Shown here piece after piece: positions 12,707 through 46,852 of a stretch of 64,000 nucleotides of DNA. The first letter of the stretch is position 1, and every line of letters starts with the position of its first letter. The stretch is from a virus, in the IMG/VR virus record IMGVR_UViG_3300033233_000034, positions 1 through 64,000 of that record. One strand, 5' to 3'. Position numbers and translations under genes: made by a program. The notes under the pieces are model-generated. The model was not told where the DNA came from and did not search any database. It saw nothing but the letters and a program-made list of their open reading frames with translations.

Positions 12707-13165
12707 ATGGCTTACAACACAATTAAAATTAAAAAGTACTCAGACGTAATTGAAGAGTACCCAGCTTTAACCACAACCATTTATCCCGGATATTTGATTG
12801 AAGTTGATGATGCTGGAAAGGTAAAGGTACACGCTACTGCAAATGGTACCGTTTTACCTATGTTTGCTTTGGAGGATGAATTACAAGGTGGTAGTATTGA
12901 AACAGCTTTTGCTGCTCTTGATAGAGTTCAGTGCTGGATTCCCGGACGTGGTGATGTGGTTTATGCACAATTAGCTGATGGTGAAAGTGTAGCAATTGGT
13001 GAGTTCCTTTCCAGTGATGGTACAGGAAAACTTCGTAAGTATGATGCTATTGCTTCTGGTGGAGTAGTCGAAGCTCCTGAATGTATTGTAGGGGTTGCCC
13101 TTGAAGCTGTTGATATGACCGTTTCTACTGATCCTTCTGGACGTATTAAAGTAAGAATTAAATAA
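12707..13165 (+). CDS. Head decoration / capsid-stabilising protein
   Basis: 152 aa, beta-rich and acidic (TTTIYPGYLIEVDDAGKVKVH near 24-44, then alternating strands, ending GRIKVRIK). Size, position just before the major capsid gene and strand pattern fit a DUF2190-like or similar trimeric capsid decoration protein. There is no sequence motif to prove it. It could alternatively be a minor head protein. Confidence 0.65.
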   Translation: MAYNTIKIKKYSDVIEEYPALTTTIYPGYLIEVDDAGKVKVHATANGTVLPMFALEDELQGGSIETAFAALDRVQCWIPGRGDVVYAQLADGESVAIGEFLSSDGTGKLRKYDAIASGGVVEAPECIVGVALEAVDMTVSTDPSGRIKVRIK

Positions 13166-13189: not shown

Positions 13190-14299
13190 ATGGAAGCAAA
13201 TGTAGATTTAATTAGTAATGGTTTGTCACAAGGAATGGTGGCTAATCAAATAGCAAACAATGGTCGTTTGAACTTGGGTCAAATGCGTCCGTTTATTGAT
13301 GCTGATGGTAAACCTTATATTACTACCTATATGGGTGGTGATCCAAAGGCAGCAACAAGTTGGAAAACCGAATTAATAACCAATGCTACTGCTACCCTGA
13401 GAAGGGATGAGTGGAAACAATTGGATGCAGCGATCATGGAACCAGCTCGTTTTCGCCTTGGAGGTATTCAGGATTTGATTGATAAAGGTTTGACTTTTAA
13501 TCTCGGAAATGCAATGGGAACTACCGTGCTGGAATGGCATGATGTTTCTGATGCAATGGAGGCCAGTTTAACAATGGATGGTGTTAGCCGTGGAAATGGG
13601 GATCGTCCAGTTTATCAACACAATTACTTACCTATCCCGATAGTCCATGTTGATTATGAAATCAATGCTCGGGTGTTAGCATCTTCTCGTAGTTTAGGAA
13701 ATCCTTTGGATACTACTTCTGCGGAACGTGCTGCTCGTAAGGTTTTGGAGAAACTGGAAGCAATGTTATTCTCGGATACTACTTATTCCTTCGGGGAGAA
13801 AGATAGTCGTTCTAAAAATACCATTTATAGTTATCTAAATCATCCTGATAACAATCTGGTTACTTTGACCCATAGTTGGTCAGCTGCTGGTACGACTGCT
13901 GCTGAAATTCTTGCTGATGTAATGAATATGAAAACGGCCAGTGTTGATGATTATCATTATGGACCTTGGATGCTTTACATTCCTTCTGCCTACGATGCAA
14001 AATTGGATGAAGATTATGGTTCAACAGGAACTACAAATACTTTAACTATTCGTGATCGTATTTTGAAAATTGCGGGCATTACTGGAATCAAAGTAGTTGA
14101 TACTTTAGCTACTGACCATGTTTTGTTAGTTCAAATGACCCCCGACGTTGTTCGTTTGGTTCGTGGTATGGGTTTACAAAATGTAGAATGGGAAACCGAA
14201 GGTAAATTTGTTACCAAATATAAGGTGTTAACTATACAAGTTCCTCAAATTCGCTCAGATCAAAATCTGAGATCAGGTATTGTACTTGGTACACCGTAA
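13190..14299 (+). CDS. Major capsid protein, HK97 fold
   Basis: 369 aa. It carries the conserved-looking segments of encapsulin-related HK97-fold coat proteins: VYQHNYLPIPIVHVDYEINAR (near 145-165), SRSLGNPLDTTSAERAARKVLEKLEAMLF and a C-terminal A-domain core with VRLVRGMGLQNVEWETEGKF. Multiple copies build the icosahedral head. An AAAGGAG Shine-Dalgarno sequence 12 bases upstream suggests strong translation. No delta-domain is obvious, agreeing with the separate scaffold in the upstream gene. Confidence 0.9.
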   Translation: MEANVDLISNGLSQGMVANQIANNGRLNLGQMRPFIDADGKPYITTYMGGDPKAATSWKTELITNATATLRRDEWKQLDAAIMEPARFRLGGIQDLIDKGLTFNLGNAMGTTVLEWHDVSDAMEASLTMDGVSRGNGDRPVYQHNYLPIPIVHVDYEINARVLASSRSLGNPLDTTSAERAARKVLEKLEAMLFSDTTYSFGEKDSRSKNTIYSYLNHPDNNLVTLTHSWSAAGTTAAEILADVMNMKTASVDDYHYGPWMLYIPSAYDAKLDEDYGSTGTTNTLTIRDRILKIAGITGIKVVDTLATDHVLLVQMTPDVVRLVRGMGLQNVEWETEGKFVTKYKVLTIQVPQIRSDQNLRSGIVLGTP

Positions 14300-14353: not shown

Positions 14354-14824
14354 ATGGAACGTATAAAGAAATCAAAAGTAGTAGAGCAAATAGATGAACA
14401 AGTAGTAGCTACACCTAAAAAAGCTACAATTACTGTAAAAGAAAAAGAGGATGTTCTTGTTCCTGTTTTAAAGAAAGAAATTGAGGAAGAAGTTGAAGTA
14501 ACCACAAAGTTATTATGGAAAAAAATCGGTGGGGGTTCACTCCGTTGGAAAAATCAAATAATTAAGCCTAACCAAGAATTTTGGGCTGATCCATCAGAAT
14601 TACCCCGTACTTTTTTACCTTATTTGAAATGTTTAGAGGCTACTAAATTTGAAGAAATAAAGAGTAAAAGAATATTAGAAAAAACAACTCCTGAAGGACT
14701 GTATACTTTAGTGGAAAAGAAAAAGGGATTGTGGGCAGTCGTAGGAGCTTCTGGAAAAGCAATAAACGAAACTTTACTAAGTAAAGAAGCAGCAATAGAA
14801 TTATCTAATAATCTTAATACTTAA
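14354..14824 (+). CDS. Structural-operon protein of unknown function, 156 aa
   Basis: Begins MERIKKSK, with a Lys/Glu/Val-rich low-complexity N-terminal half. A compact C-terminal domain follows (GGGSLRWKNQIIKPNQEFWA, near 60-80, then LPRTFLPYLKCL). Small proteins like this commonly lie between capsid and connector genes in phages. Here it directly precedes the sugar-modification block, four bases away. It might link head decoration to the head, but that is inference. Confidence 0.6.
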   Translation: MERIKKSKVVEQIDEQVVATPKKATITVKEKEDVLVPVLKKEIEEEVEVTTKLLWKKIGGGSLRWKNQIIKPNQEFWADPSELPRTFLPYLKCLEATKFEEIKSKRILEKTTPEGLYTLVEKKKGLWAVVGASGKAINETLLSKEAAIELSNNLNT

Positions 14825-14827
14825 AAT

Positions 14828-17758
14828 ATGAAATGGGTAGTTCCAAGAATATGGGAAGGAGGCACTTGTGTGATTATAGGTGGTGGACCATCTATGCTTA
14901 AACAATTTGATATACCTGTGGAAATTATACAAGGGGTGTATTCAGGAGAATTAAAACCAGCAGCTTACTCCCCATATCTTGACCCCATTCATAATATGCA
15001 CGTGATAGCCGTGAATGTAGCTTATCAAATAGGGGATTGGATTGATGTTTGTTTTTTTGGGGATAATTCAACATGGGATGAAGAAAAAGAGGAATTAGCA
15101 AAGTGGAAGGGATTGAGGGTTACTTGTGCGGAGGAATTAATAGATGACATACGCCTAAAACACCTTGAAAGAAATGGAAAAAAGAGAATGGGGATTTCAG
15201 TCGAACCGAATATGGTTAGTTGGAATAGCAATAGCGGAAGTGCTGCTATTAATCTTGCAGTTCATTTTGGTGTCAAAAAAATAATTCTTTTAGGATTTGA
15301 CATGAAACTTGATGAAGGTAGAAATCAACATTGGCATAAAATATATAAAAAGCAATTAAAAACAAAGGAAACTACATTAAATAGTACGTTTAGAAAGCAT
15401 TTGAATGGTTTTCAACAAATGAAAAAGGATTTGGACACTTTAGGTGTGGAAGTGATTAATTGTAGTCCTGAGAGTAGCATAACAGTATTTCCAAAAATGA
15501 ATTTTAAAGACATTAACGTTCTTGATAATCCCGGCAATAATATAAATTTAATTTTTGAGAAAGAACAGGAAGAGATACACTATGATTGGAGGAATAAAAA
15601 TCAAATTAAAAAAATCTGTATAACCACCACCTTTGACAGAAATTATAAAGAAGCCGGAAAAACTTTATTTAATTCAATTAAACGACATACAGATTGCACC
15701 GGAATAGATTTTAAAATTATCACATCGGACACGGAAGTAGTTAAAGACTTTGGGGAAGAAAATTGTTATTTTATTACTGAGGAAATAAAAAATAGATACA
15801 GCAATGTTAAATATCACAAAGAATTAACAGTAGAAAAATATGCTTCTTCATGGTATCGTTTTGAAATATTTAATATGACTGAATATGATCGGGTTATTTG
15901 TATTGATTCTGATTGTATTTGTGTAGAGGATATTTCTTATCTATTTAGTGAAGAATTAAATCAGTATGATTTAATATCTGTTGAAGATCATATTGTTTCT
16001 AAATGTTTTGTAAATCTCGTTCCTGAATTAGAAAGAAATGGTTCCCGCCTTAGTAATCTTACCAAACGATTAAAAGAAGGAAAAATAGATATTCAACCAG
16101 CATTATTGGTGGCTAATAAATCTATTGTAAATAAATCTTGGTATGAAAAACTAATTTCTTTTGCAAATATAGTTCCTTTTTCATATTCTATTGATGAGGG
16201 GGTTTTAAATGATTTCATTTATCAAGAAGGTATAAAAATAAAATTATTACCATTAGAATGGGATTTTCAAGATATTTATGAAAAAGTATGTTTAGATTTA
16301 CTCGTTCCTACGAAACCAATCATCATTCATTGTCAAGAATCTAAACCATTTAAGAAGTCAAAAGCACAATTAGAGCCATATTTTCATAAATATCATGATT
16401 TATGGTGGGAAGAAAATAAATTCAGTGTATTAAGCCAATCAAAAACAATCGTTGTTATTATAGTTTGGAATCGGTTTGAAAATTTAAGAAGATGGATTAA
16501 TTGCTGGAACCAATGTGATACCTCAGAAGCGGAACTTGTGGTTGTTCATAATCAGGAAACAGATAATCATAGGTATTGGCAACTGTGTAGTGATAACGGT
16601 ATTAAATATGTATATCGTGAAAATGTTGGTTTTGATATTGGTGCTTTTCAGGATATCTGTAAAGAAAGATTGGCAAATTTTCCAAATGAATGGAATAACA
16701 TGATTTGGGTTACAGACGATTGTATTCCAATGGCTAAAGATTTTGTTAGTCAGTATTTAAAACAATTAACAGATACTAACACTCCTTGTTATGAGATTTC
16801 AAAGGAGGTTAAAACTCATGTAAGAACTACTGGTTTTTTGATTACTAAGGAGATTGCAAAAAAATTAATATTTCCTAAAGACCCTATTCATAACAGGGAA
16901 GATTGTTATCAATTTGAGCATAAAAGCAAAAATGCTTTATATGAACAACTGATTAGTATGGGTAAACATCCGATAATGGTAAATAAGGATTTAAAAACAT
17001 CTCCATTATGGGATTCTGACGTCCGAGCGTACTTAAATTTAATGAAAAAACATGAAGAAGTATTTGCCCCATTAAAATCTGAAAAAACAGAAGAACAACC
17101 AATAAGTATTTTGGATGAATTAGCTATAAAATATAAGGCAGATAAAAGTTCAAGATACCATAATTACGCATCTAAATATGATAAAATATTAACTCCTTAC
17201 AAAGACATTTTCACATCTATTCTGGAAATCGGGGTAGCTCAGGGACAATCAGTAAGAATGTGGACAGATTATTTCCCAAAGGCTAAAATTCATGGAGCAG
17301 ATATTGATAAGGCTTCTGAAATATGTGAGGCTTTTTCTAATAGAATAAAATTTCATTTACTTGATCAAAGAGATGCTGCTCAACTAAAAAATCTTGAACC
17401 GTATTCTCCATTCGATTTGATAATAGATGATGGTAATCATTTTTGGATGGAACAAATCCTTACTTTTAAAATTCTTTTTCCTTATGTACGAAAGGGTGGT
17501 ATTTATATTATAGAAGATACAACTACTTCATATTGGAAAGAGTATAGAAATCATCCTATTTCAACAATAGAATATTTTAAGACTTTAATAGATGAAATTA
17601 ATTTTAAAGGTGAGAAAGCAACTGTACCCCTAAATCCCCCTGAAGAATTTGGAGATTGGGAAAAGGGATGGCATTGTAGAGAGGATTGTCATACAACAGT
17701 CCCTTTATTTGAGTCAATTCAATTTATGAATGGTTTTATTGTAATATACAAAAGATGA
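14828..17758 (+). CDS. Four-domain glycosyltransferase/methyltransferase polyprotein, 976 aa
   Basis: Domains in order: (1) residues 1-250, a DUF115/Maf-like region (GGTCVIIGGGPSML; later INLAVHFGVKKIILLGFDM), a fold used by flagellin glycosylation factors; (2) about 262-510, a GT8-like glycosyltransferase with the DxD in CIDSDCI near 357-363; (3) about 538-755, a GT2-like domain (KTIVVIIVWNRFENLRRW; VTDDCIP near 626); (4) about 770-976, a class I SAM methyltransferase (SILEIGVAQGQS near 796, then LIIDDGNHFW). All are read from sequence; substrates are unknown. Such a fusion between capsid and connector genes suggests building a decorated sugar on a virion protein. It overlaps the next gene by four bases. 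Confidence 0.85.
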   Translation: MKWVVPRIWEGGTCVIIGGGPSMLKQFDIPVEIIQGVYSGELKPAAYSPYLDPIHNMHVIAVNVAYQIGDWIDVCFFGDNSTWDEEKEELAKWKGLRVTCAEELIDDIRLKHLERNGKKRMGISVEPNMVSWNSNSGSAAINLAVHFGVKKIILLGFDMKLDEGRNQHWHKIYKKQLKTKETTLNSTFRKHLNGFQQMKKDLDTLGVEVINCSPESSITVFPKMNFKDINVLDNPGNNINLIFEKEQEEIHYDWRNKNQIKKICITTTFDRNYKEAGKTLFNSIKRHTDCTGIDFKIITSDTEVVKDFGEENCYFITEEIKNRYSNVKYHKELTVEKYASSWYRFEIFNMTEYDRVICIDSDCICVEDISYLFSEELNQYDLISVEDHIVSKCFVNLVPELERNGSRLSNLTKRLKEGKIDIQPALLVANKSIVNKSWYEKLISFANIVPFSYSIDEGVLNDFIYQEGIKIKLLPLEWDFQDIYEKVCLDLLVPTKPIIIHCQESKPFKKSKAQLEPYFHKYHDLWWEENKFSVLSQSKTIVVIIVWNRFENLRRWINCWNQCDTSEAELVVVHNQETDNHRYWQLCSDNGIKYVYRENVGFDIGAFQDICKERLANFPNEWNNMIWVTDDCIPMAKDFVSQYLKQLTDTNTPCYEISKEVKTHVRTTGFLITKEIAKKLIFPKDPIHNREDCYQFEHKSKNALYEQLISMGKHPIMVNKDLKTSPLWDSDVRAYLNLMKKHEEVFAPLKSEKTEEQPISILDELAIKYKADKSSRYHNYASKYDKILTPYKDIFTSILEIGVAQGQSVRMWTDYFPKAKIHGADIDKASEICEAFSNRIKFHLLDQRDAAQLKNLEPYSPFDLIIDDGNHFWMEQILTFKILFPYVRKGGIYIIEDTTTSYWKEYRNHPISTIEYFKTLIDEINFKGEKATVPLNPPEEFGDWEKGWHCREDCHTTVPLFESIQFMNGFIVIYKR

Positions 17759-18675
17759 TAAACAGAATATTAAAACCGATTTCAAGAAACAGAGCCATTG
17801 AGACGTTGGGAACCGTTTGGACTACTTGCATGAAGCATAACATGGAAATAGACATAACGGAAGAGACGTTACAAAATATGTGCGTAAATCAACTAACATT
17901 TGGTTTATTCTCATCTCACGAAAATGTGAATGATAGGGAAACTTTAGAAAAGTTGGCTTACGCTCTTGGTTTGTATGGTATTAAGAATCCTGAATCGGAT
18001 TCGTATGGAATTTATCCCCGAACAAGTTTAAAAGAAGTTAGTTCTAATGAATTACTAAAAAGTATCGAAAAAGAATTAGGCTTTCCAATTACCTTTGCTC
18101 GTTTATTTACGGGGGGTATGGTAAGACAAGAATCTGATTTTGGACGTTGGTCCATTCGTCAAATTCATTATTTGTGGATGATGAAAAAGATTCTTGAATT
18201 ATGCCCTAATCGTAATAGTAGGATTATAGAAGTTGGGGCTGGTATTGGTGTATTAGGGTTCTATTTGGATAAATTAGGGTACAAAGATTATACCATTGTT
18301 GATTTAGCAAGGGTGAATGCTGGACAGGCCTATTATTTATCAAAGAATCTTCCTGAACGTAATTTTATTCTTTCTGGTGAAGTTAAAAATCCTTTTGAGG
18401 ATATTAAATCAATAAAGATACTGCATACATCAGATTTCAATAATGTTCCTACTGGTCGTTATGATCTGATGGTTAATATAGATGGGTTAACAGAGTACCC
18501 GGTAGAAGATGCGAAAAGGTATATACATAGCGATTGTGCTCCAATGCTATTAAGTATTAATCATGAAGTAAATCCATTCCGAGTGATTGAAATAGCAGAA
18601 CCATACAAGCATTTAGTATATCGCACTCCATTTTGGTTACGTGACGGATATGTAGAAGAACTTTATAAAGCATGA
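17755..18675 (+). CDS. Class I SAM-dependent methyltransferase, sugar O-methyltransferase-like
   Basis: 306 aa. The glycine-rich SAM loop IIEVGAGIGVLGFYL (about 157-171) is followed by IVDLARVNAGQAYYL. The surrounding LFTGGMVRQESDFGRWSIRQIHYLW resembles putative sugar O-methyltransferases. The long N-terminal helical region (first 100 residues) fits that family too. It probably methylates a hydroxyl of a glycan made by the adjacent transferases. ATGA overlap with the upstream polyprotein couples them. Confidence 0.8.
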   Translation: MINRILKPISRNRAIETLGTVWTTCMKHNMEIDITEETLQNMCVNQLTFGLFSSHENVNDRETLEKLAYALGLYGIKNPESDSYGIYPRTSLKEVSSNELLKSIEKELGFPITFARLFTGGMVRQESDFGRWSIRQIHYLWMMKKILELCPNRNSRIIEVGAGIGVLGFYLDKLGYKDYTIVDLARVNAGQAYYLSKNLPERNFILSGEVKNPFEDIKSIKILHTSDFNNVPTGRYDLMVNIDGLTEYPVEDAKRYIHSDCAPMLLSINHEVNPFRVIEIAEPYKHLVYRTPFWLRDGYVEELYKA

Positions 18676-18676
18676 T

Positions 18677-19912
18677 ATGAAAACTATAACTAAACAGCAT
18701 ACAGCTTGTAGAATTTGTGGTTCCACGAATTTAAGTAAATATCTTGATTTGGGAGAAATGCCTTTACCAAACAATTTAGAATTAACTGAAAAATTGGCAA
18801 AAGAAAAAGAAAGATTTCCATTACAGGTTTTATTTTGTAATAATTGTGGACTATCCCAGTTATCTATTGTAGTTGATCCAGAGAAACTCTTTAGTTATTA
18901 CACCTATGTTTCCGGTATAAATCAGGGGTATGTTCTACATTGTAGGAAAATGGCACAGGATTTATCTAAACGGTTTGGTTTATGTTGTTCCTCTTTTCAT
19001 ATTGATATTGCAGGAAATGATGGTACGTTGCTTATTGAATTTCAAAAATTACTTAAACATCAGGTACTGAATGTTGACCCGGCAGTAAATTTAACGGCTA
19101 TTGCAAGAGAAAAAGGAATACCGAGTATTACAACATTTTGGGGATTACCTGTTATATATGAAATAGGTAAACGAGCTGATTTAATCACTGCCACAAACGT
19201 ATTTGCTCATTTGGACGATTTGGCTGAGTTTATGGTGGCTTGTCGGGGAATGTTAAAAGATACGAGTGTATTAGTAATTGAAAATCCATATTTGATAGAC
19301 TTTATAGATAATATGGAGTTCGATACTATTTACTTTGAACACATTACATATTGGAGTTTAATTCCAATGATGAGATTATGTAGTCAATATCACTTAAAAG
19401 TAATAGCAGCAGAAAAACAAGAAATCCATGGTGGTAGTATGCGTTATATTATTACTCGTGAAGAAAGTGAATACCAACCTTCTTCAGATTTAGAGAAGAT
19501 TTGTGCGGAGGAAAAAAGAAGGGGTTTTGATAAATATGAAAGTTATGCTGGATGGGCTAGTAAGGTTTGTTCATTTATATCGAACTTTAGAAAGAATCTA
19601 CTTAAATTAAAAGCAGAGAATAAAATCATTATTGGTTTTGCGGCATCAGCTAAAGGAAATACTCTTTTAAATTCTGCAAGGATTGACGATCATATTATTA
19701 ACTGTATTATTGATGAAACCCCTGAAAAAATAGGAAAGTATTATCCTGGAGTTGGAATACCAATTGTAAATATTTCCAATATTATGGAAATAGTACCAGA
19801 TTATATTATTATACTTTCGTGGAATTTTAAAGATGAGATTATTGCAAAAGTAAAAGCATTGGGATATAAAGGAAAATTCATTATACCAATACCAACTTGG
19901 GAAATAATTTAA
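18677..19912 (+). CDS. SAM-dependent C-methyltransferase-like protein
   Basis: 411 aa with the architecture of sugar C-methyltransferases. An N-terminal zinc-binding region (CRICG near 12-16 and CNNCG near 54-58), a central SAM fold (IDIAGNDGTLLIEF near 112-125; NVFAHLDDL near 173-181) and a C-terminal region with GFAASAKGNTLLNSARI (about 314-330), typical of the Methyltransf_14-type end. Relatives act on deoxysugars of antibiotics or surface glycans. It lies two bases after the previous methyltransferase, so one pathway is likely. Confidence 0.82.
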   Translation: MKTITKQHTACRICGSTNLSKYLDLGEMPLPNNLELTEKLAKEKERFPLQVLFCNNCGLSQLSIVVDPEKLFSYYTYVSGINQGYVLHCRKMAQDLSKRFGLCCSSFHIDIAGNDGTLLIEFQKLLKHQVLNVDPAVNLTAIAREKGIPSITTFWGLPVIYEIGKRADLITATNVFAHLDDLAEFMVACRGMLKDTSVLVIENPYLIDFIDNMEFDTIYFEHITYWSLIPMMRLCSQYHLKVIAAEKQEIHGGSMRYIITREESEYQPSSDLEKICAEEKRRGFDKYESYAGWASKVCSFISNFRKNLLKLKAENKIIIGFAASAKGNTLLNSARIDDHIINCIIDETPEKIGKYYPGVGIPIVNISNIMEIVPDYIIILSWNFKDEIIAKVKALGYKGKFIIPIPTWEII

Positions 19913-19916
19913 AATT

Positions 19917-20609
19917 ATGATAGCACTTATAACACCGACCGGGGGACGTTCAGTACAGATTAAACATTGTGCAGAGTTTATGAAGGCTCAAACGTATGCT
20001 GGGGATGTTATTTGGATAATTGTAGATGACTGCGTTCCTGTTACTACTGATTTTATTACAAGTGATTTTCGTTCAGGTTGGGAAATAAACAAAGTTTATC
20101 CTACTCCTAAATGGAGACAAGGGGATAATACTCAGGCACGAAATCTTCAAGCAGCTATTAATGTGGTTAAGACAATGGAAGTTTCATCTATTTGGATAAT
20201 TGAGGATGATGATTATTATTCTCCAAAATATTTGTCTATTATGACTGGTGCTTTGGAGGGATTTGATATTGTTGGTGAGACGGATACAATTTATTATCAT
20301 ATTCGATTAAAAAGAGGATTAAAAAGTGGTAATAATAAACATTCAAGTTTATTTCAAACTGGATTTAAACCCTCTATAATTCCTATTTTTGAACAGGTTG
20401 TTTCAACAAAAGTTAAATACATAGATATAGAACTCTTTAAGGCTGTTCCTAATGTGCAATTCATAAAAGGTTTAGATTTAGCGATAGGTATAAAAGGATT
20501 GCCCGGAAGAGGAGGTATTGGTGTAGGTCATAATCCTCGTAATTATAGAAGGGTAACAGATGATTTAACTGAAAAACAAAGCAAAACTTTAAGAAATATA
20601 TACGGATGA
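19917..20609 (+). CDS. GT2-like glycosyltransferase
   Basis: 230 aa. Starts with the nucleotide-sugar binding strand of a GT-A fold (MIALITPTGGRSVQIKHCAE), with VDDC near residue 40 and the metal-binding IIEDDDYYSP near 90-99. It is short for a full GT2, so it may act on a small acceptor or need a partner. Substrate unknown. Its stop overlaps the next ATG by four bases, so it belongs with the sugar block. Confidence 0.75.
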   Translation: MIALITPTGGRSVQIKHCAEFMKAQTYAGDVIWIIVDDCVPVTTDFITSDFRSGWEINKVYPTPKWRQGDNTQARNLQAAINVVKTMEVSSIWIIEDDDYYSPKYLSIMTGALEGFDIVGETDTIYYHIRLKRGLKSGNNKHSSLFQTGFKPSIIPIFEQVVSTKVKYIDIELFKAVPNVQFIKGLDLAIGIKGLPGRGGIGVGHNPRNYRRVTDDLTEKQSKTLRNIYG

Positions 20610-21304
20610 GTACTAATATAAAAAATACACCTATCTTTATAACCGGAGCAGAACGCTCAGGTAGTTCAATTATTGCTCGTATTGTAAATCATTGTGGAGT
20701 TTTCTCAGGTAAGATTACAGATATGCAAGAGAATAAGAAAATAAAAGATTTATTGGATAAATATTATGTTTATAATTTACATATTAGTCCTTTAGGACAG
20801 TATCCATTACCAAATAGTTTAAAGATTAAAGTACCGGAAGATTGGAGAATAACCGTATTGCAATCCCTACAAATGGAATTGTACAATGAGAGAATACCTT
20901 GGTTTTATAAAAGTGGAAGATTGGCTCAAACATGGCCTATTTGGAACCATGAGTTTCCCCTGGCTAAATGGATTATTGTGAGACGTAGAACAGGAGATAT
21001 TATTCAGAGTTGTATGAAAACGGGTTGGATGATAGCCTTTGATAATACATATACTTTAGAGAAATTAGGAGTATCTACGATACAAGAAGGTTGGTTATGG
21101 TGGGTTCATCAGCATGAAAAAATGTTTATAGAGATGATAGAAGCTGGTTTAAATTACAGAGAAATTTGGCCGGAGCGTATGGCAACCGGGGATTTTGAGC
21201 AAGTAAAAGAAATAATACAATGGTTGGATTTAGAATGGAAAGAAGATATACCAGAGTTAGTAAAGCCTTTATTTAAAAATAGTTCTCAAAAGAAAGGAGT
21301 ATAA
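20606..21304 (+). CDS. Sulfotransferase-like protein
   Basis: 232 aa. The N-terminus has the PAPS 5'-phosphosulfate loop (ITGAERSGSSIIARIV, about 12-27), then a second region with WIIVRRRTGDIIQSCM (about 121-136), where the 3'-phosphate site is usually found. It would transfer sulfate to a sugar or tyrosine. It closes the sugar block before connector genes resume. The family call is good from motifs; activity and acceptor are unproven. Confidence 0.78.
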   Translation: MSTNIKNTPIFITGAERSGSSIIARIVNHCGVFSGKITDMQENKKIKDLLDKYYVYNLHISPLGQYPLPNSLKIKVPEDWRITVLQSLQMELYNERIPWFYKSGRLAQTWPIWNHEFPLAKWIIVRRRTGDIIQSCMKTGWMIAFDNTYTLEKLGVSTIQEGWLWWVHQHEKMFIEMIEAGLNYREIWPERMATGDFEQVKEIIQWLDLEWKEDIPELVKPLFKNSSQKKGV

Positions 21305-21308
21305 TATT

Positions 21309-21680
21309 ATGGCTGTAAGAGTAACAGAAGCAGAAGTGAAAGCATTATTAGATGATACTACTTTAACCGATCCGCAGGTATTAGCATTTATAACGAGTGC
21401 AAATGTTTTAGTTAATACAGCATTAGGTACAGGGGTTACTGATATTTTGAAAGAAATTGAAAAATGGTTGGCATGTCACATGATTGCTATTACTCGTGAA
21501 CGTCAAGCTAAAAAAGAAGAAGCTGGTGGAGCAAAGATAGAATACACAGGAGTAACGGGTGAAGGCTTAAAAATGACCTCTTACGGACAAATGGTGATAG
21601 CTTTGGACACAAGTGGTATCATGGCCTCCCTTAGTGGTAAGACACTTCAAATTTATGCCATTAAATCTTTCAACTCATGA
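21309..21680 (+). CDS. Head-tail adaptor, connector protein
   Basis: 123 aa, all-helical N-terminus (VTEAEVKALLDDTTLTDPQ), then a C-terminal segment with GLKMTSYGQMVIALD. Size, place and helical layout fit HK97 gp6/gp15-type connector proteins that bind below the portal. A good Shine-Dalgarno sequence (AAAGGAG) lies 10 bases upstream. Assigned mainly by position and architecture. Confidence 0.75.
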   Translation: MAVRVTEAEVKALLDDTTLTDPQVLAFITSANVLVNTALGTGVTDILKEIEKWLACHMIAITRERQAKKEEAGGAKIEYTGVTGEGLKMTSYGQMVIALDTSGIMASLSGKTLQIYAIKSFNS

Positions 21681-27579: not shown

Positions 27580-30123
27580 ATGGCATACGGTAATAAATAT
27601 GATATTCGATGGGCTGGAAAAGACCTTAAGGGACATCTATACTTAGATAAGGATGCTTACGCTGGTGCAGTCGATACAAGCGTTCGTATCCCTTTCGATA
27701 GTATATCCTATAATTATTTATTTGGTGACTGGAATGAGCCTGTAATCGGTATGCAATTAGAATTTGAGATTGTTAACGATAAAGCTAATTATTTTACTTT
27801 AGATGATTTACTAACATCTACTGAGGGTGAATATAAAGTTCGTTTGGTGGTAGATTATCCTACAACCTATACTCTATTTGAAGGATTCCTAAATTGTGAT
27901 ACAGTTACTCAAAAATATTTACAGAAACAAAATATTAAATTTGTAGCTAGTAGTTACCTTTCTAAATTAGAAAATGATCATCCTATAAGTATTGATACTT
28001 TACAAAATAAAACATTTATTGATATTATAGATGAAATTTTGGTAAGTACGGGAGCATCCTATAATATAAAAATAAATAGTACTCTTCATGCTGAGGGGGA
28101 TGTTCTTTCTGCCGGAAAATCTTTGTTTAATCTCAATGGTTTTAATACGGAATTATTTTGGGAGGATGAAGTTGAGCGTAAATCCAGTTTAGATATTCTT
28201 AAAACTATATTAACTACTTTTGAGTGTTATTTGTATTGGTGGGGAAGTTATTGGTATATTGAACGCTATGAAGATATTTGGAAAGAATCTGTTTCATATA
28301 TAGAATATACCACAGGAACACCTTATGCTCCTACTGGCACTGGAGCAGTGGTTGCAGGAACGAAAAGTATTAATAGAGTACATTATGATCCAATTACAAA
28401 AACAGGTTTACGATTTATTCAACAATCTCAAAATAGACATAGTATTCCAGGATTAAAAAGTATTCAAATAAATTTAGAGGATAAAAAATTCCTTAATTTG
28501 GTTAAAGCGGATTTAACAAACATAGGAACTACTTCAACGGCTGCACCTACTCCTGATTATAGAACATGGTTACGGTGGGTTGATGGGGATGTTGAGTGGG
28601 CGTGGGCTACAATAGGTCAACCAAAATCAAATATTAGTAATAGTATTTGTAGAATAGCTTGGGGAGGTATTCAAGGAGAAGAACTTGTATTTGATTCTTT
28701 TAAGGGTTTATATACTCAATTTAAGATAACGGTAACAGAATCTACTGAATTAAAAATAGCTTTTAAATACGCTGTGGATAGGTATGGGACGATAGCGCCG
28801 TGGAGTAATGCAAACTCACCTTCATTAGATGGTTTTATATTTCATTTTCCTTGGTATTTACGATCTGTTACAGATAGTGAATATATAACACAACCAAACA
28901 TAGAAGTAGATTCATGGATAAAAAGTCCAAAAGATACTGAATTACGTGCTTTACAATATATACAGGTAAACGGATCATCCTTCAATCCTAAAACTAATAC
29001 AGTAGATGTAAGTGTGACTATACCTATTGGTAAAGTTGTTAAACAAGAATTAGAATTACCAGCAGGTTTATTGATAGGGGATATTTCTTTAGTATTGTGT
29101 ATAGGATCAGAAGTAATAAAGAAACAGGATGTAGCAGATTCACAACCCAATCAGGCTTGGTTTGGTGATTTTGAAGTAACAGCTACAGATGAAAATCAAA
29201 ATAATGTTATAGAGGGTAAAATTTCTACTAAATTTCTAAACAAAAAAACTATTCCCTTATCGTTATATGATTCTGAAAATGTTAATTATAAGAATGGTAT
29301 TGTACGTGGGAGTGACTTGTCTATAAGAACAGAAAAATGGGGAACCACTGGAGAGGCTACCGAAATAGTTCAAAAAGGAGTAGTTTGGTCAACAATAATA
29401 AACCCAACAGTAGCATTAGCTACTAAAACTTTAGATGGTGCTGGTACAGATACTTTTACAAGTCTTATAACAGGGTTATCTCCCGGAACTACTTATTATG
29501 TTCGTTCTTATTTTACCGATGCTTTAGGGGATACTTATTATGGGAATGAAATAGAATTTGCTACAACGGCTTTAGTTATAGGTAGTCCTTATATGGGTGG
29601 TAAAATTGGGTATTTGTATCAACCGGGGGATGGTCCTTATGATGCAAATGTTGTACATGGTATTATAGTTTCAGATTATGATATATCTTATTTATTTACT
29701 TCTCATCCGGGGAAAAACTTTTGGTGTAGTTTACAAAGTGTTTCAAGTAATAATGTATCTTGTGATACAATATTAGGTTTAGGAACTCACGATGCTGAAG
29801 GGGGTAGAGTTAATTCCGATTTAATGAATGATAATGCTTTTGTATTGGATTATGCTATACATGATGTAGCTTTATATGATATGGGGAATTACACGGATTG
29901 GAAAATGCCAAGTATAGATGAATTAAATTTAATTAGAGGAAATAAAGTAGCTTTAGGAAATAATTTTGTTTCTGATTGGTATTGGAGTAGTAGTGAACCA
30001 AGTTTAGATGGTATTCATGGTGCGGGGGTAAAAGCATATGCTTTAAATTTTGGGAACACCTCTGTTAAGGATGCTTGGAAAAAGAATAATTGGAGGCGAG
30101 TACGTGCCGTAAGATATTTTTAA
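27580..30123 (+). CDS. Tail hub/distal tail protein with FnIII-like and lectin-like C-terminus
   Basis: 847 aa. The first 270 residues look like a baseplate hub or distal tail protein (RWAGKDLKGHLYLDKDAYAG near 10-30; STGASYNIKINSTLHAEGD near 160). Near 585-670 is one FnIII-like repeat of the Bacteroidota kind (KGVVWSTIINPT; YYVRSYFTDALGDTYYG). The last about 150 residues are a Lcl/DUF1566-like C-type-lectin fold (DWKMPSIDELNLIRGNKVA, WYWSSSEPS, WRRVRAVRYF). Such folds bind receptors and are targets of diversity-generating retroelements in other phages. The domain order is seen; the receptor role is inferred. Confidence 0.82.
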   Translation: MAYGNKYDIRWAGKDLKGHLYLDKDAYAGAVDTSVRIPFDSISYNYLFGDWNEPVIGMQLEFEIVNDKANYFTLDDLLTSTEGEYKVRLVVDYPTTYTLFEGFLNCDTVTQKYLQKQNIKFVASSYLSKLENDHPISIDTLQNKTFIDIIDEILVSTGASYNIKINSTLHAEGDVLSAGKSLFNLNGFNTELFWEDEVERKSSLDILKTILTTFECYLYWWGSYWYIERYEDIWKESVSYIEYTTGTPYAPTGTGAVVAGTKSINRVHYDPITKTGLRFIQQSQNRHSIPGLKSIQINLEDKKFLNLVKADLTNIGTTSTAAPTPDYRTWLRWVDGDVEWAWATIGQPKSNISNSICRIAWGGIQGEELVFDSFKGLYTQFKITVTESTELKIAFKYAVDRYGTIAPWSNANSPSLDGFIFHFPWYLRSVTDSEYITQPNIEVDSWIKSPKDTELRALQYIQVNGSSFNPKTNTVDVSVTIPIGKVVKQELELPAGLLIGDISLVLCIGSEVIKKQDVADSQPNQAWFGDFEVTATDENQNNVIEGKISTKFLNKKTIPLSLYDSENVNYKNGIVRGSDLSIRTEKWGTTGEATEIVQKGVVWSTIINPTVALATKTLDGAGTDTFTSLITGLSPGTTYYVRSYFTDALGDTYYGNEIEFATTALVIGSPYMGGKIGYLYQPGDGPYDANVVHGIIVSDYDISYLFTSHPGKNFWCSLQSVSSNNVSCDTILGLGTHDAEGGRVNSDLMNDNAFVLDYAIHDVALYDMGNYTDWKMPSIDELNLIRGNKVALGNNFVSDWYWSSSEPSLDGIHGAGVKAYALNFGNTSVKDAWKKNNWRRVRAVRYF

Positions 30124-30495: not shown

Positions 30496-31232
30496 TGGCA
30501 ATTAATGTAACAGTAACTAGAAGATTTAGAGGGGCTAAGGACAAAACAGCTTCCAGTCCTTCTTATATGTTTCAGAATCCACAAGCATTAAGTGGAGGTG
30601 TTACTATGGAACAGGTAAATGCTGCTATATTGAATAAAAAATCATTACATGGTTTTGAAAGAAGTTCAAACAATGTTTTGTCATTTAACGCTGGGACTGG
30701 TGTTTTTTCTATTACTGGAACTCAATTTGGGATTTGGTATATGGGGTATCAGTATTTAAAAGACACTGAAACGGTAACGCTCACCCTTGAAAGTGGAATA
30801 CCTTCTCGATGGTTTGTTTTTTGGGATAATGAATTAACCTTATCTGTAAATGAAACTTGTGATGTTTATGAATCCTTATTAGTAGCTATTCTTATTTGGA
30901 ATGGGACTACTGGTGAAATTGTAGATCGTAGGCATCCAGCATATACAGATTGGGATGATATGGAAGCACAAAAAGTACCCATAATAATTCCTTTTACAGC
31001 CGTTGTTAATCCGATTCTCCCAATAGACTACCCTACTCATACATATCAGGATTTGTTTGTTACAAAATACGGAGAGTACCCAAATTTACAGTTAATAATC
31101 GAAGTAGATGCAAATACTGAATATATTAACACTGTACAACCCATCCGGCACCTATCAGATGGTAAGTTGGATTATATAGATTGGTATTTAGACGGAGCAG
31201 AAGTAACTGGGAAAATAAAATTATCACGATGA
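30495..31232 (+). CDS. Tail protein, 245 aa
   Basis: Begins MAINVTVTRRFRGAKDKT and is beta-rich, with GVFSITGTQFGIWYMGYQYL near 70-90 and GIPSRWFVFWDNELTLSV near 100. It resembles receptor-proximal tail proteins of siphophages by position (between hub and fibre). The last base pairs overlap the next gene's ATG (ATGA). No enzyme motif. Confidence 0.65.
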   Translation: MAINVTVTRRFRGAKDKTASSPSYMFQNPQALSGGVTMEQVNAAILNKKSLHGFERSSNNVLSFNAGTGVFSITGTQFGIWYMGYQYLKDTETVTLTLESGIPSRWFVFWDNELTLSVNETCDVYESLLVAILIWNGTTGEIVDRRHPAYTDWDDMEAQKVPIIIPFTAVVNPILPIDYPTHTYQDLFVTKYGEYPNLQLIIEVDANTEYINTVQPIRHLSDGKLDYIDWYLDGAEVTGKIKLSR

Positions 31233-34200
31233 AAAAGATATTTGTCACATTTTGCCTTGTCGGTTTTTGCCTTGTCGGTTTTGGGCAATTTCGTTCAGAG
31301 ACTCCTCCCGCTGTTTCTGACACAGGAAGGCACGCACTATTAACACCTCCGCCATTTACTTTATGGTTCCCTCCCGGCGACACAATTCGCAGGATTTACA
31401 TTAACATGGGAAACAAATACAAATATGAGTCACTAATTACGGGCCAAAGATTAAATACAATAATTGATAGTCTGTTATTAGTTACTTCAGGAATTTATAA
31501 GCGGTTAGACGACAGCACCGCTCGTGACGGATTTGCAAAAAGGGAGTATGTTCAACACTTTTTCGTTCAAAAGCAAGATAGTGATAATTTAGAAACAGGT
31601 TATTTCCCTAATTCACGAGCAGATACAAAAACCGATACTTCTTTTCATGACAATCTTAGGCATTTAGCTGAAAGAAATTATTCTTCATTAACAAATGTTC
31701 CAGATTTAGGATTAAAAAGGGATACGTCAAGCCATGATAATTTAAGGCATTTAACTGAAAAGTCTTATAATTCGCTAACTGAAACGCCTAATCTAACACT
31801 AAAAACCGATACGTCCTTCCATGATAATCTTAGGCATTTAGCTGAAAGAAAATATGAATCTTTAACAGATAAACCTGATTTAGATATTTATAGAGAAAAA
31901 ACAACCCCAATAACATACGCTGAAATAACAAGTAAGCCAAATTTAGCTATATATAGAGAGAGAAGTGATACAATAGATCATGATGGTACAGCCTCCGTTG
32001 GTGAATTAAGGAAAAAAATACCCTTAGCAGAAAAAGGGGTAAATAATGGTGTTGCCACATTAGATGCTGGCGGTAAGGTTCCTGCATCACAATTGATCGC
32101 TACCACATATCCTCACAAGGGCGTTTGGAATGCTGCAACAAATACTCCAACCTTAGCAGATGGTACAGGAACAGCAGGATGGGTTTATCTTGTTACAACA
32201 GGAGGAACTGTCAATCTTGGTAGTGGAAATATAACTTTTGCAGTAAATGAACATGCAGTATATAGTGGTACAATTTGGCAAAAATCAGGATCAAGCAGTG
32301 CTGTTTCTTCCGTTAACTCCCAAACAGGAGTAGTGGTATTAAACACGGATAATATTGCAGAAGGTAGTACAAATAAATACAGTACTGGTAATCTTTGGAA
32401 AAGAACGGGGACTACACTTTCACCTAATACTACAAATGACAATATAGATAATGGCAATGGTAAAGTAACCACGGGGATGGTTTCTTCTGATAGTATTATG
32501 GCTAAAAATAGAACAAGTGGTTTGGTTTTTGACACTTCTGGTTCTGTGACAATTGACACTAGCTATACTACATATTCTACGACATTGGATAAAATGGAGT
32601 ATAGTACTAATGCATTAGCACAAATGGCTTATGTGACGAGTGCGGATAGTGTAGCTGAAGGTGCTCAAGGAACAATTGACGCTGAAACAAAGTTATTAGT
32701 ACATTTTAATGGAGCAAATGACGGTACTACATTTTCAGACACAGCAACAAATAAGCAAATAACAAACCCGAACAATGGGGTGCTTACTAAAACAGGAATT
32801 AAGAAATTTGGTACAGCAGCGGGATATTTTAATGGAGCGAGCTATCTTCATTTGAACGATAACGCAGATTGGGACTTTGGAACAGGAACATTTTCGGTAG
32901 ACTTTTGGGTATATCCAACTTCTGCAGATTTTTCCGGTTACTTGCCGATGGTTGCGTCTGGCAATTATAATACACCAGAAAACACGCACGGCTGGACAAT
33001 ATATACTAGAGATAGTGGTGTTGTAAAATTATCAACAAACGGTTCCTCTGTTAATCAGGTTACATCGGGTGATCAAGTACTAACCATGAATACTTGGAAT
33101 CACATTGCCGTGATAAAAAAGGGTACAGGGAGTACGGATTTTAATATCTATGTGAATGGAGTTGCTGGGAATGCTCCCGAGACAGGTAACGTAATTACAG
33201 ACGCGGGAACTTATGGTTTGACAATTGGCAGGTATTATAATGACTTAAACGGTTATTATTATACAGGTTATTTGGATGAACTTAGAATATCTAAAGGCGT
33301 CGCCCGCTGGACTTCCAATTTTACATTACCTGCAAGACAATATCCATATGTACAAGCTGGATCGAGTGGAATAGCGTTACAAGTACAATCGACTACGATT
33401 AAGACAGAAGGATCAAATGCTATTAAAGGTATTGCAATGAAAGATTCAACTGGGTTTACCCTTACTCGCTCTATTGTAGAACCTATCAATCTTTCAACAG
33501 CTGATACTTTAAAATTTGATATTCGTTCAACCAGAACAGGGCAAAATCTTAAAGTAACTGTAAAAGATAAAACAAGTAATTATGCCATAGACGTAACACC
33601 AACGATAGCTGTTGCAAATCAGTATCAAACCGTTCGCACAAACATAGCTAATATAGCACCTACAAATAGAGATTCTATCAACAAAATTATCATAACTGTT
33701 ATAGATGCTGCTGCCGCAGATACTTTTTATGTGGACAATATGTTTACTAATGAAAAGGACACTACTATAACAGAAACGATGCATGGTGGGGGTATTGAAT
33801 TAAGGTTACGGGGATACAAGGTATTTGTAGCTGATTCCTCTAAAAATATAGAGGTCGTAAATAAACTCAAAGGTCCAGTTATTAATGTAACAGATTCATT
33901 GACTGTTCAGGCAGCTACTTATACATCTGGTGGCTACAGTATTCTTGTGCGTAATGACGCCAATGGTCGGGTTGAAAAGATACCATCAAGTTCTATTTCA
34001 TTAACAGATACCAAGTGGAATGGTGGTTCAGAAACACTTGTTGCAGCAACAGGTAGGGCAAGTCTTGGATTAGGTACGGCAGCATTAAGTTCAGCATCTA
34101 CATTTGTTCCTTATACTGGAGCAACAGGAAATGTAACTCTTGGAGCAAATACTATCACGGCTGGTAATTTCATTTTGTCCTCAGATAGGAGATTAAAAAT

Positions 34201-34441
34201 GAAAATAAAACCTATTGATTTTACTGGAGTTAATATTAAGTATTATCAATATAGAGCTATATCTGATACCTCACAGATTAGGTATGGCGTTATGGCAGAT
34301 GAAGTACAAAAAACAAATCCTGAATTAGTACGAAAAGATGAAAATGGAATGTTAAGTGTTGCCTATATCGATTTGCTTATTAAGGAAATAGCAGCTTTAA
34401 AGCAAAGAGTTTTGGAACTTGAAAAAACAATACAACCATGA
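31229..34441 (+). CDS. Tail fibre with signal peptide, LamG-like domain and S74 chaperone
   Basis: A longer frame opens at 31181, but the ATG at 31229 overlaps the previous stop and starts with a signal-peptide-like sequence (MKKIFVTFCLVGFCLVGFGQ). Then come three near-repeats of about 30 residues (HDNLRHLAER..; about 130-220), a helix-poor region, a LamG/concanavalin-like domain near 490-700 (FNGASYLHLNDNADWDFGTG, YLDELRISKG), and the C-terminal S74 intramolecular chaperone (SSDRRLKMKIKPIDF; ending with a coiled coil LKQRVLELEKTIQ). S74 cuts itself off after trimerisation. The combination is a fibre; the signal peptide is unusual. Confidence 0.87.
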   Translation: MKKIFVTFCLVGFCLVGFGQFRSETPPAVSDTGRHALLTPPPFTLWFPPGDTIRRIYINMGNKYKYESLITGQRLNTIIDSLLLVTSGIYKRLDDSTARDGFAKREYVQHFFVQKQDSDNLETGYFPNSRADTKTDTSFHDNLRHLAERNYSSLTNVPDLGLKRDTSSHDNLRHLTEKSYNSLTETPNLTLKTDTSFHDNLRHLAERKYESLTDKPDLDIYREKTTPITYAEITSKPNLAIYRERSDTIDHDGTASVGELRKKIPLAEKGVNNGVATLDAGGKVPASQLIATTYPHKGVWNAATNTPTLADGTGTAGWVYLVTTGGTVNLGSGNITFAVNEHAVYSGTIWQKSGSSSAVSSVNSQTGVVVLNTDNIAEGSTNKYSTGNLWKRTGTTLSPNTTNDNIDNGNGKVTTGMVSSDSIMAKNRTSGLVFDTSGSVTIDTSYTTYSTTLDKMEYSTNALAQMAYVTSADSVAEGAQGTIDAETKLLVHFNGANDGTTFSDTATNKQITNPNNGVLTKTGIKKFGTAAGYFNGASYLHLNDNADWDFGTGTFSVDFWVYPTSADFSGYLPMVASGNYNTPENTHGWTIYTRDSGVVKLSTNGSSVNQVTSGDQVLTMNTWNHIAVIKKGTGSTDFNIYVNGVAGNAPETGNVITDAGTYGLTIGRYYNDLNGYYYTGYLDELRISKGVARWTSNFTLPARQYPYVQAGSSGIALQVQSTTIKTEGSNAIKGIAMKDSTGFTLTRSIVEPINLSTADTLKFDIRSTRTGQNLKVTVKDKTSNYAIDVTPTIAVANQYQTVRTNIANIAPTNRDSINKIIITVIDAAAADTFYVDNMFTNEKDTTITETMHGGGIELRLRGYKVFVADSSKNIEVVNKLKGPVINVTDSLTVQAATYTSGGYSILVRNDANGRVEKIPSSSISLTDTKWNGGSETLVAATGRASLGLGTAALSSASTFVPYTGATGNVTLGANTITAGNFILSSDRRLKMKIKPIDFTGVNIKYYQYRAISDTSQIRYGVMADEVQKTNPELVRKDENGMLSVAYIDLLIKEIAALKQRVLELEKTIQP
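31634..31880 (+). repeat. Three in-frame repeats in the fibre gene
   Basis: The coding DNA contains three diverged copies of a roughly 90-base unit encoding HDNLRHL-x(2)-K/R-x-Y-x-S-L-T, beginning near 31635, 31721 and 31810. Each forms a likely shaft segment; copy number could change by recombination. Confidence 0.7.
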
Positions 34442-45997: not shown

Positions 45998-46852
45998 TTA
46001 AAAATATACTTTTGCTTTTCTTTTAATAGTCTTAACTCGATACATTTCTATATAAATCGGTTTTATCTTTTTCATTCGATTTAGTTTTCTATTAACCCAA
46101 CCCTTTTTAACATTTTCTATAAATTTTAATTTATTTTCAGGATTTTGTAAAAAGAGTTTGCGATTTTCAGACATTTTTAATTTAGTTTCTACTGTATGAG
46201 GAAACCTTTCTTTTTGAAGATTTGAAACAGTATAAGTTAAACCTTTATTCCAAGGAATCCTACCTTTGATTTTTTCTGCATGTAGTAACCTATTTTCTTT
46301 ATTCCAATAATTATGTATTTTATCTAATTGTTCTTGCGTATGAAAAAATTTATTCCCTAAAGCATGAGTATTCCCTTTTAATTTATCTTTGTTTTTAATA
46401 CTTATTTTCTTTTTTGTTTCTTCTGAGTGAACTTTGCCATAAAAGGAATTTAATATACCAATAGGGTGTTCATTATTGTCCCAAAACTCTTTTTTCTTTT
46501 TAGATTGTTTTCGTTTTGTTTCCTCGGAATGATGGGAACCTAATGGAGAACCCGCATAAGGGTAGATATTGTATAACCCATGAGTTTCTCTATAAGAATC
46601 TATCATCAGTTGTTCTTGTAATAAACGATTTTTTTCTTCACAATAAAGTAAAACCTTAAATTGAAAATTATCTTCACCGTATTTATTCCAAGCTCGTTGT
46701 AAATATGGATTAAGATGGTTTCTTTTTTGTAATGCTTTTAAATGAACTTTTAATCGTTTTTCTATATTTATAGAACTACCAACATAAACTTTATTAGTAA
46801 TAATGTTTTGAATTAAATATACCCCTGATAGGATTAATGTAGATTTATTCAT
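45998..46852 (-). CDS. Free-standing GIY-YIG endonuclease
   Basis: 284 aa. The N-terminal GIY-YIG domain (SGVYLIQNIITNKVYVGSSI near 9-28; NPYLQRAWNKYGEDNFQF near 48-65) is followed by repeated DNA-binding motifs of the NUMOD3 kind (HHSEETKRKQSKKKKEFW; HSEETKKKISIKNKDKLKGN). These cut a DNA site and promote their own spread. It starts inside the stop of the RecA-like gene and does not disrupt it. It could be a homing element in the recombination cluster. The family call is strong. Confidence 0.92.
   Translation of the reverse strand: MNKSTLILSGVYLIQNIITNKVYVGSSINIEKRLKVHLKALQKRNHLNPYLQRAWNKYGEDNFQFKVLLYCEEKNRLLQEQLMIDSYRETHGLYNIYPYAGSPLGSHHSEETKRKQSKKKKEFWDNNEHPIGILNSFYGKVHSEETKKKISIKNKDKLKGNTHALGNKFFHTQEQLDKIHNYWNKENRLLHAEKIKGRIPWNKGLTYTVSNLQKERFPHTVETKLKMSENRKLFLQNPENKLKFIENVKKGWVNRKLNRMKKIKPIYIEMYRVKTIKRKAKVYF

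Follow-up and report, generated by a model that had tools for sequence, protein, structure and literature searches.

We analysed a 64-kb window (the whole stretch of DNA studied here, positions 1 to 64,000 of the 68,999-bp uncultured virus record IMGVR_UViG_3300033233_000034) in which five genes for glycosyl, methyl and sulfate transfer lie within the virion structural operon, between the genes for the major capsid protein (MCP) and a DUF4054 head-tail connector. The block, already noted in a preliminary description of this DNA, is no one-off: comparison with relatives reveals an island that is widespread, its ends conserved and its contents exchangeable. The first and last enzymes, a DUF115-type domain and a sulfotransferase (ST), appear to be retained in hundreds of relatives, while those between are swapped. 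The island probably constitutes a late-expressed, cytoplasmic pathway of virion decoration, with Maf-type initiation of O-glycosylation on a head protein, a variable glycan and sulfation. Particle decoration seems to us the best reading on two grounds, the constant place of the island next to MCP and the recurrence of the same gene cassette in the head clusters of unrelated phages. What the comparisons below show directly is which genes are present, their motifs and folds, their fixed position, their separability and their horizontal exchange.

MCP-based searches of viral contigs and metagenome-assembled genomes (MAGs) yielded, among the best matches, 50 non-identical loci spanning MCP to connector (loci of relatives are numbered with an L). 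Open reading frames (ORFs) in relatives were called mechanically, contig ends shorten many loci, and binned MAG contigs may be misassigned. DUF115 was present in 44 of the 50 loci, ST in 36 and both in 34; these MCP-anchored figures are the fair count, as enzyme-anchored counts start from the enzyme and are biased. The preliminary description had named syntenic blocks in related phages as a means of checking its proposal, and such blocks are thus common. Among enzyme-anchored loci, MCP lay at most three genes upstream of DUF115 in 117/118, and the connector directly followed ST in 78/102; in most of the others, a single small unlabelled ORF separated the two. The viral collection as a whole contained at least 507 relatives of DUF115, some of which may belong to other phage groups, and at least 292 of ST. 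Chance can be excluded as the source of the island, since dozens of independent phages have DUF115 and ST in this same place, with motif residues conserved at 95–100%.

The slot can also be empty. Three of the 50 loci lack any named gene, and two of these, L041 and L046, pass straight from MCP to connector with just 94 and 83 bp between them, bearing out the earlier claim that the genes are dispensable for assembly. In L047, the slot holds only a homologue of g14354, the small gene that separates MCP from the island in the window. We propose g14354 as a candidate acceptor or helper, a slender one, because its homologues accompany the island (43/50 loci) and are missing from both empty slots.

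Across 73 islands, the interval from DUF115 to ST ranged from -12 to 7998 bp and held 0–12 genes, the minimal islands being DUF115-ST and DUF115-GTA-ST (L024), where GTA stands for a glycosyltransferase of the GT-A fold. The 25 commonest cargo families listed from a scan of 83 proteins include GT2, GT11, GT47, Methyltransf_24, FkbM, nucleoside diphosphate (NDP)-sugar dehydratase/epimerase and radical S-adenosylmethionine (SAM) proteins. At 50–60% MCP identity, DUF115 and ST were 47–48% identical, whereas just ~7% of the cargo was shared, and some pairs with 78% MCP identity had zero cargo genes in common; fast divergence instead of exchange could account for part of this low sharing. The cassette of the window itself, which comprises the GT8, GT-A and methyltransferase (MT) domains of ORF A, offers direct sequence evidence of horizontal exchange, because it is 73% identical to its counterpart in L033, far above the values for MCP (56%), DUF115 (47%), ST (38%) and the connector (36%).

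In the window (14828–17758), DUF115 and GT8-GTA-MT form a single in-frame fusion, whereas the two are separate adjoining genes in L033 (L033:10001-13038). Longer DUF115 proteins (265–948 aa) were also observed in L126, L166, L184, L185, L257 and other loci; the fusions therefore probably arose more than once. Separately, L280 (5700-13300) and L281 (430-8085), one of them from a 173.8-kb contig, contain long runs of genes for 200–280 aa proteins around a methyltransferase related to that of ORF A; these runs are possibly large clusters of glycan genes belonging to a different phage group.

In the window, the island consists of five uninterrupted, back-to-back plus-strand ORFs (ORF A, 14828-17758, and ORFs B to E; Table 1), beginning 3 bp past g14354 and ending 4 bp ahead of the connector gene. 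Of its four internal joints, two (first/second and fourth/fifth ORF) are 4-bp overlaps. The gene boundaries, the location between a capsid-proximal gene and the connector, and the enzymes named in the preliminary description all hold, curated models identifying every domain except two glycosyltransferases, of which ORF D was recognised through its predicted structure and the second glycosyltransferase of ORF A is inferred.

Table 1. Coordinates of the island and its fixed neighbours in the window
Feature	Positions	Strand	Evidence and remarks
Major capsid protein (MCP)	13190..14299	+	phrog_771 (2e-20), PF19774 (2e-18); fixed left neighbour of island
Small protein g14354, between MCP and island	14354..14824	+	Candidate acceptor or helper
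DUF115/MptE/Maf-type domain, ORF A residues 1-238	14828..15541	+	phrog_4603 (4e-36); first gene of island, conserved
GT8 glycosyltransferase domain, ORF A residues ~264-520	15617..16388	+	PF01501 (2e-10), above cut-off; right edge estimated
Second, GT-A-like domain, ORF A residues ~539-753	16442..17086	+	PF00535 (0.024), under cut-off
SAM methyltransferase domain, ORF A residues 762-976	17111..17755	+	Methyltransf_24 PF13578 (2e-6), above cut-off; phrog_21658 (2e-25)
NanM-type sugar O-methyltransferase (ORF B)	17755..18675	+	TIGR04371 (4e-14), above cut-off
NDP-hexose C-methyltransferase (ORF C)	18677..19912	+	PF08421 (1e-18) and PF08484 (9e-45)
GT-A-fold glycosyltransferase (ORF D)	19917..20609	+	PF00535 (0.006, weak); predicted structure; recurrent penultimate gene
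Sulfotransferase (ST, ORF E)	20606..21304	+	PF13469 (9e-7), above cut-off; last gene of island, conserved
DUF4054 head-tail connector	21309..21680	+	PF13262 (6e-6), phrog_302; fixed right neighbour of island

The start of ORF A matches phrog_4603, a DUF115-like family labelled 'alpha-2,3-sialyltransferase'. An AlphaFold 2 (AF2) model of the domain (predicted local distance difference test, pLDDT, 88) has Maf (5mu5) as its top match in the PDB (Foldseek E 2e-4, probability 1.00), followed by CstII (1ro8) and archaeal HPPK (8sd5), so that the Maf-like character previously assigned to it stands at the level of the fold. Across 127 sequences, the residues GGGxS, FGD, WNxN, GFDM and H170 are conserved at 95–100%, GGGxS being invariant, and the domain pairs the DUF115 fold with a nucleotide-binding GxGPS-type loop, as found in Maf/DUF115 protein glycosyltransferases. 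The MptE-like model PF01973 scored 21.1 bits against the domain, below its cut-off of 34.6, and zero Maf models were reported; because the sequence falls below the Pfam cut-off, we describe the domain as Maf-like in working and not as a shown member of the Maf family. We propose that it is a protein O-glycosyltransferase that begins the glycan.

The remaining domains of ORF A carry recognisable motifs. In six homologues, the DxD of CIDSDC in the Glyco_transf_8 domain and the SAM-type motif EIGVAQGQS of the methyltransferase are both invariant, and the segment between these domains, which has a conserved WxTDDCIPM motif and a 49% identical homologue in L038, is a putative second glycosyltransferase. 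No homologue of the NanM-type ORF B was found in the relative loci collected at the time of comparison. ORF C has the Zn-binding N-domain, the SAM domain and the C-domain of NDP-hexose C-methyltransferases, and its homologues in L033, L034 and L278 contain, in addition, a fused RmlD-type NDP-sugar reductase domain, which points to a deoxyhexose. For ORF D, the gene for which occurs in 15 of the 50 MCP-anchored loci, EDDDYY is invariant in 10 homologues and the AlphaFold model (AF2 pLDDT 87) matches GT-A enzymes in the PDB (SpsA 8e-10, WrtF 2e-9 and TarP); the predicted structure settles its assignment as a GT-A glycosyltransferase. ORF E scored 29.8 bits against PF13469 (Sulfotransfer_3; cut-off 27) and has the 5'-phosphosulfate-binding (5'-PSB) and 3'-phosphate-binding (3'-PB) motifs of sulfotransferases dependent on 3'-phosphoadenosine 5'-phosphosulfate (PAPS): TGxxRSG and RR...D...S (T13, G14, R17, S18, G19, R127 and S135) are conserved at 96–100% in 108 sequences. 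PF13469 is the fitting sulfotransferase model, a search of the phage's own record with PF00685 giving no match.

The cassette of GT8-GTA-MT plus the C-methyltransferase was also found in phages with other terminase or capsid families, in which no window-type MCP was found in the fetched stretch. In L034, the cassette is flanked by a head-morphogenesis gene and a phrog_10 major head gene, in L275-L277 by a phrog_10 head gene and a head-closure gene, and in L278 by TerL (phrog_9) and portal; in L037 it comes after a phrog_2 TerL, in L038 it adjoins portal and a TerL-like gene, and in L035 it is near a phrog_979 TerL. Homologues of DUF115 in independent lineages keep similar company. With glycosyltransferases and methyltransferases, they stand behind the capsid gene in Tetraselmis viridis virus S20 and behind the tail genes in CcrColossus; in PAJU2, whose methyltransferase is ORF012, and in IME307, the homologue and a methyltransferase belong to the head-tail region. 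We take repeated arrival beside head genes as the best sequence evidence for the particle as the target.

For the activity, acceptor, donor sugars, order, timing and benefit of the island, we infer the following scheme. The DUF115/Maf-type domain would O-glycosylate a head or neck protein on Ser/Thr, using a nucleotide sugar, with MCP, the decoration protein (12707-13165) and g14354 as the possible acceptors. GT8, the GT-A domain and ORF D would lengthen the chain with host-made NDP-sugars, and the O- and C-methyltransferases (the ORF A domain and ORFs B and C) would modify the sugars or their precursors. ORF E would then transfer sulfate from host PAPS to the end of the glycan or directly onto a protein side chain. 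The two enzymes at the ends, both conserved, would recognise the conserved particle and the exchanged middle genes would set the structure of the glycan, making the island a phage counterpart of a serotype locus, with altered adsorption, charge, stability or environmental shielding as likely benefits.

Several observations weigh against this scheme. The likeness of the DUF115 domain to Maf is confined to the fold (10% identity), and CstII and HPPK are almost equally close. In L279, the cassette lies near a DnaB helicase, away from head genes, and late expression alone could be the cause of head-side placement, the slot being simply tolerant of late-expressed insertions. Among the island genes of the window, none for the synthesis of NDP-sugars was found, so that donors must come from the host. 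Finally, L045 has ST without the other island enzymes and L048 has DUF115 without ST; the two steps are therefore separable, with no single obligatory pathway.

Such separability is also what would be expected if ST sulfated a virion or connector protein directly, in the manner of tyrosine sulfation, and apart from DUF115-led glycosylation, so that two unrelated modifications share one slot. This possibility, a variant of the particle-decoration scheme with which its confidence overlaps, seems to us unlikely but serious. Besides DUF115 without ST in L048, ST occurs without DUF115 in L045, where the slot has no glycosyltransferase, and in L040, where its only companion is a TupA-like ATP-grasp protein; the nearest solved relatives of ORF E are the protein-tyrosine sulfotransferases TPST1/2. 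The TPST matches are weak, however (E 0.012-0.09, 0.012 at best), PF13469 includes carbohydrate sulfotransferases too, and DUF115 accompanies ST in 34 of the 36 ST-bearing MCP-anchored loci. In detail, L045 carries ST alone, after g14354 (L045:11106-12235), and in L040 ST is preceded by the ATP-grasp protein, of 506 aa (L040:3089-5662).

A quite improbable alternative is that the island alters a host surface glycan late in infection, serving receptor masking, superinfection exclusion or release, and that proximity to MCP merely gives late expression. Sugar O- and C-methyltransferases, GT8 enzymes and sulfotransferases commonly act on cell-surface glycans, and cargo turnover would equally suit matching to host surface types. 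Yet there are zero membrane, flippase or polyprenyl-linked enzymes: no membrane-like segment was found in the five island proteins (highest 19-residue hydropathy mean 1.53), and of 341 cargo proteins scanned, 8 exceeded a lenient hydropathy threshold and 0 the strict one of 2.2, so that the island enzymes look soluble. Moreover, late expression gives little time for surface remodelling, and a host target does not need recurrent placement in the head clusters of unrelated phages. Phage gtr serotype-conversion clusters resemble the island in being phage-borne and in carrying exchangeable glycosyltransferases, but they act on host O-antigen through membrane flippases, whereas the island has no membrane proteins and sits in a structural operon; serotype conversion of the gtr type was rejected on the same hydropathy results. 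Where the preliminary description left the target of the glycan as either the capsid or a host molecule, the position of the island beside MCP and the cassette in unrelated head clusters favour the particle, and the lack of membrane or flippase genes and the late arm make the host molecule less likely; its interpretation is thus partly supported and its observation confirmed.

That the DUF115 protein is a structural or assembly protein without remaining transferase activity, the other genes being unrelated cargo, is more doubtful still. No other enzyme of the slot is as constant as DUF115, and its PAJU2 homologue, ORF010 (hhalign 99% with the window domain), is annotated as a 'structural protein', a label of unverified basis. 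Its pocket-type residues are nonetheless 95–100% conserved, the gene is absent from L041, L045 and L046 despite intact head genes, and the window version is a fusion with glycosyltransferases. Hypermodification of phage DNA with glycosylated or sulfated bases as an anti-restriction measure was rejected as highly improbable: phage glycosyltransferases acting on DNA are known, and glycosyltransferase- and sulfotransferase-based nucleotide modification systems are mentioned in phages (PMC10829341), but the replication arm lies on the opposite strand, the island is tied to MCP and the connector and not to replication genes, and the required base-hydroxylating or base-activating enzyme was not found among 20 replication-arm proteins scanned, which include ThyX, a C5 methylase and a uracil-DNA glycosylase-exonuclease fusion.

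Decoration of phage particles with glycans has precedents. In mycobacteriophages such as Che8 and Rita, phage-encoded glycosyltransferases place glycans on the capsid and tail tube (Freeman 2023, as cited in PMC12619734 and PMC11256854). The window island likewise has phage-encoded glycosyltransferases in a structural gene context, one of the features of a phage virion glycosylation system, and mycobacterial prophages such as McProf share with it a methyltransferase adjoining a glycosyltransferase. The mycobacteriophage genes, in contrast, lie near the 3' end of the genome (Maravista, PMC11256854) or ahead of terminase (McProf), and the genome stretches covered contain no DUF115 or sulfotransferase, whereas the window island has an MCP/connector frame, a DUF115 start, a sulfotransferase end and an exchanged middle. 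Maf glycosylates flagellin, a protein polymer subunit, before chaperone binding, export and assembly (PMC4065374), and the likeness lies in the DUF115 fold and in modification of a subunit before assembly, as proposed here for the capsid. Unlike Maf, the window protein has a single central domain (~235 aa), its acceptor cannot be flagellin, and no genes for nonulosonic acids, the sugars that Maf transfers to Ser/Thr of its target protein, were found in the window. Also comparable are the phrog_4603 genes, labelled 'alpha-2,3-sialyltransferase', in phages of Caulobacter, Brevundimonas and Pseudomonas, which encode the same domain and stand among structural genes with methyltransferases and glycosyltransferases; they differ in sequence (24–31% identity) and in their neighbours, which are tail or head-tail genes and not MCP, and no sulfotransferase is annotated in the stretches considered.

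Virion glycosylation as such is therefore already known, and the window island differs from it in having a fixed frame, an exchangeable middle and a sulfotransferase. Searching 50,697 GenBank phage records with tblastn gave zero matches for ORFs B, D and E and 7, mostly uncultured, for ORF C; the combination of Maf-like domain, sulfation and methylation, earlier called unusual for a phage, is so among GenBank phages, but it is routine in this uncultured group. No description of the DUF115-to-sulfotransferase arrangement was found in the literature searched, a weak absence given that most subscription papers lay outside the search. A 2023 study of marine phages called the function of phage sulfotransferases unclear (PMC10580990), and the island offers a concrete role for them. 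We tentatively suggest, with rather less confidence than for particle decoration itself, that an uncultured, widespread phage group whose hosts are probably Bacteroidota bears sulfated, methylated O-glycans on its heads, encoded by a 'glycotype' island of exchangeable genes between a conserved Maf-type initiator and an equally conserved sulfotransferase, an island that would be equivalent to a bacterial serotype locus and give phage sulfotransferases a first assigned function. The usual picture of phage particles is one of bare protein. Fixed ends and an exchanged middle in a capsid-linked island that hundreds of uncultured phages share imply investment by a large phage group in the chemistry of the particle surface and fast diversification of it, with a bearing on particle charge, adsorption and the shielding of phages in the environment. 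The gene sets are compact and lend themselves to study through co-expression followed by mass spectrometry.

Elsewhere in the window, replication genes (polymerase A, primase-like, RecA, ThyX and C5 methylase) occupy the minus strand, and the plus-strand run that contains the island extends from ~6.6 kb on with terminase, portal, capsid and tail genes. GC content is 29–33% in the island versus 37–40% in the head genes to its left, a contrast in keeping with horizontal exchange. The Bacteroidota promoter pattern TTTG-N17-23-TAnnTTTG had 7 matches against 5.25 expected and is uninformative, and sigma-70-type promoters and terminators in 12.6–23 kb numbered at or under chance. Insertion of the island through a tRNA gene was rejected, with zero tRNA found in the window.

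Hints of the host come from two sources. Among 14 MAG contigs from bacterial genomes, 5 are titled Bacteroidetes, Bacteroidota or Bacteroidales and the others belong to diverse phyla, even archaea, so that a host assignment from these contigs is a guess, with binning noise likely. Among the tail proteins encoded at 27580-30123, 31181-34441 and 34438-37074 there are fibronectin-III repeats and a C-terminal stretch of Bacteroidota-like appearance, along with a Peptidase_S74 chaperone domain, features that weakly hint at a Bacteroidota host. In the replication arm, a uracil-DNA glycosylase domain is fused to a DNA polymerase A 3'-5' exonuclease domain (54803-56065), with the polymerase domain as a separate gene (51629-53053), and a GIY-YIG/NUMOD3 homing endonuclease-like gene (45998-47913) overlaps the end of the RecA gene.

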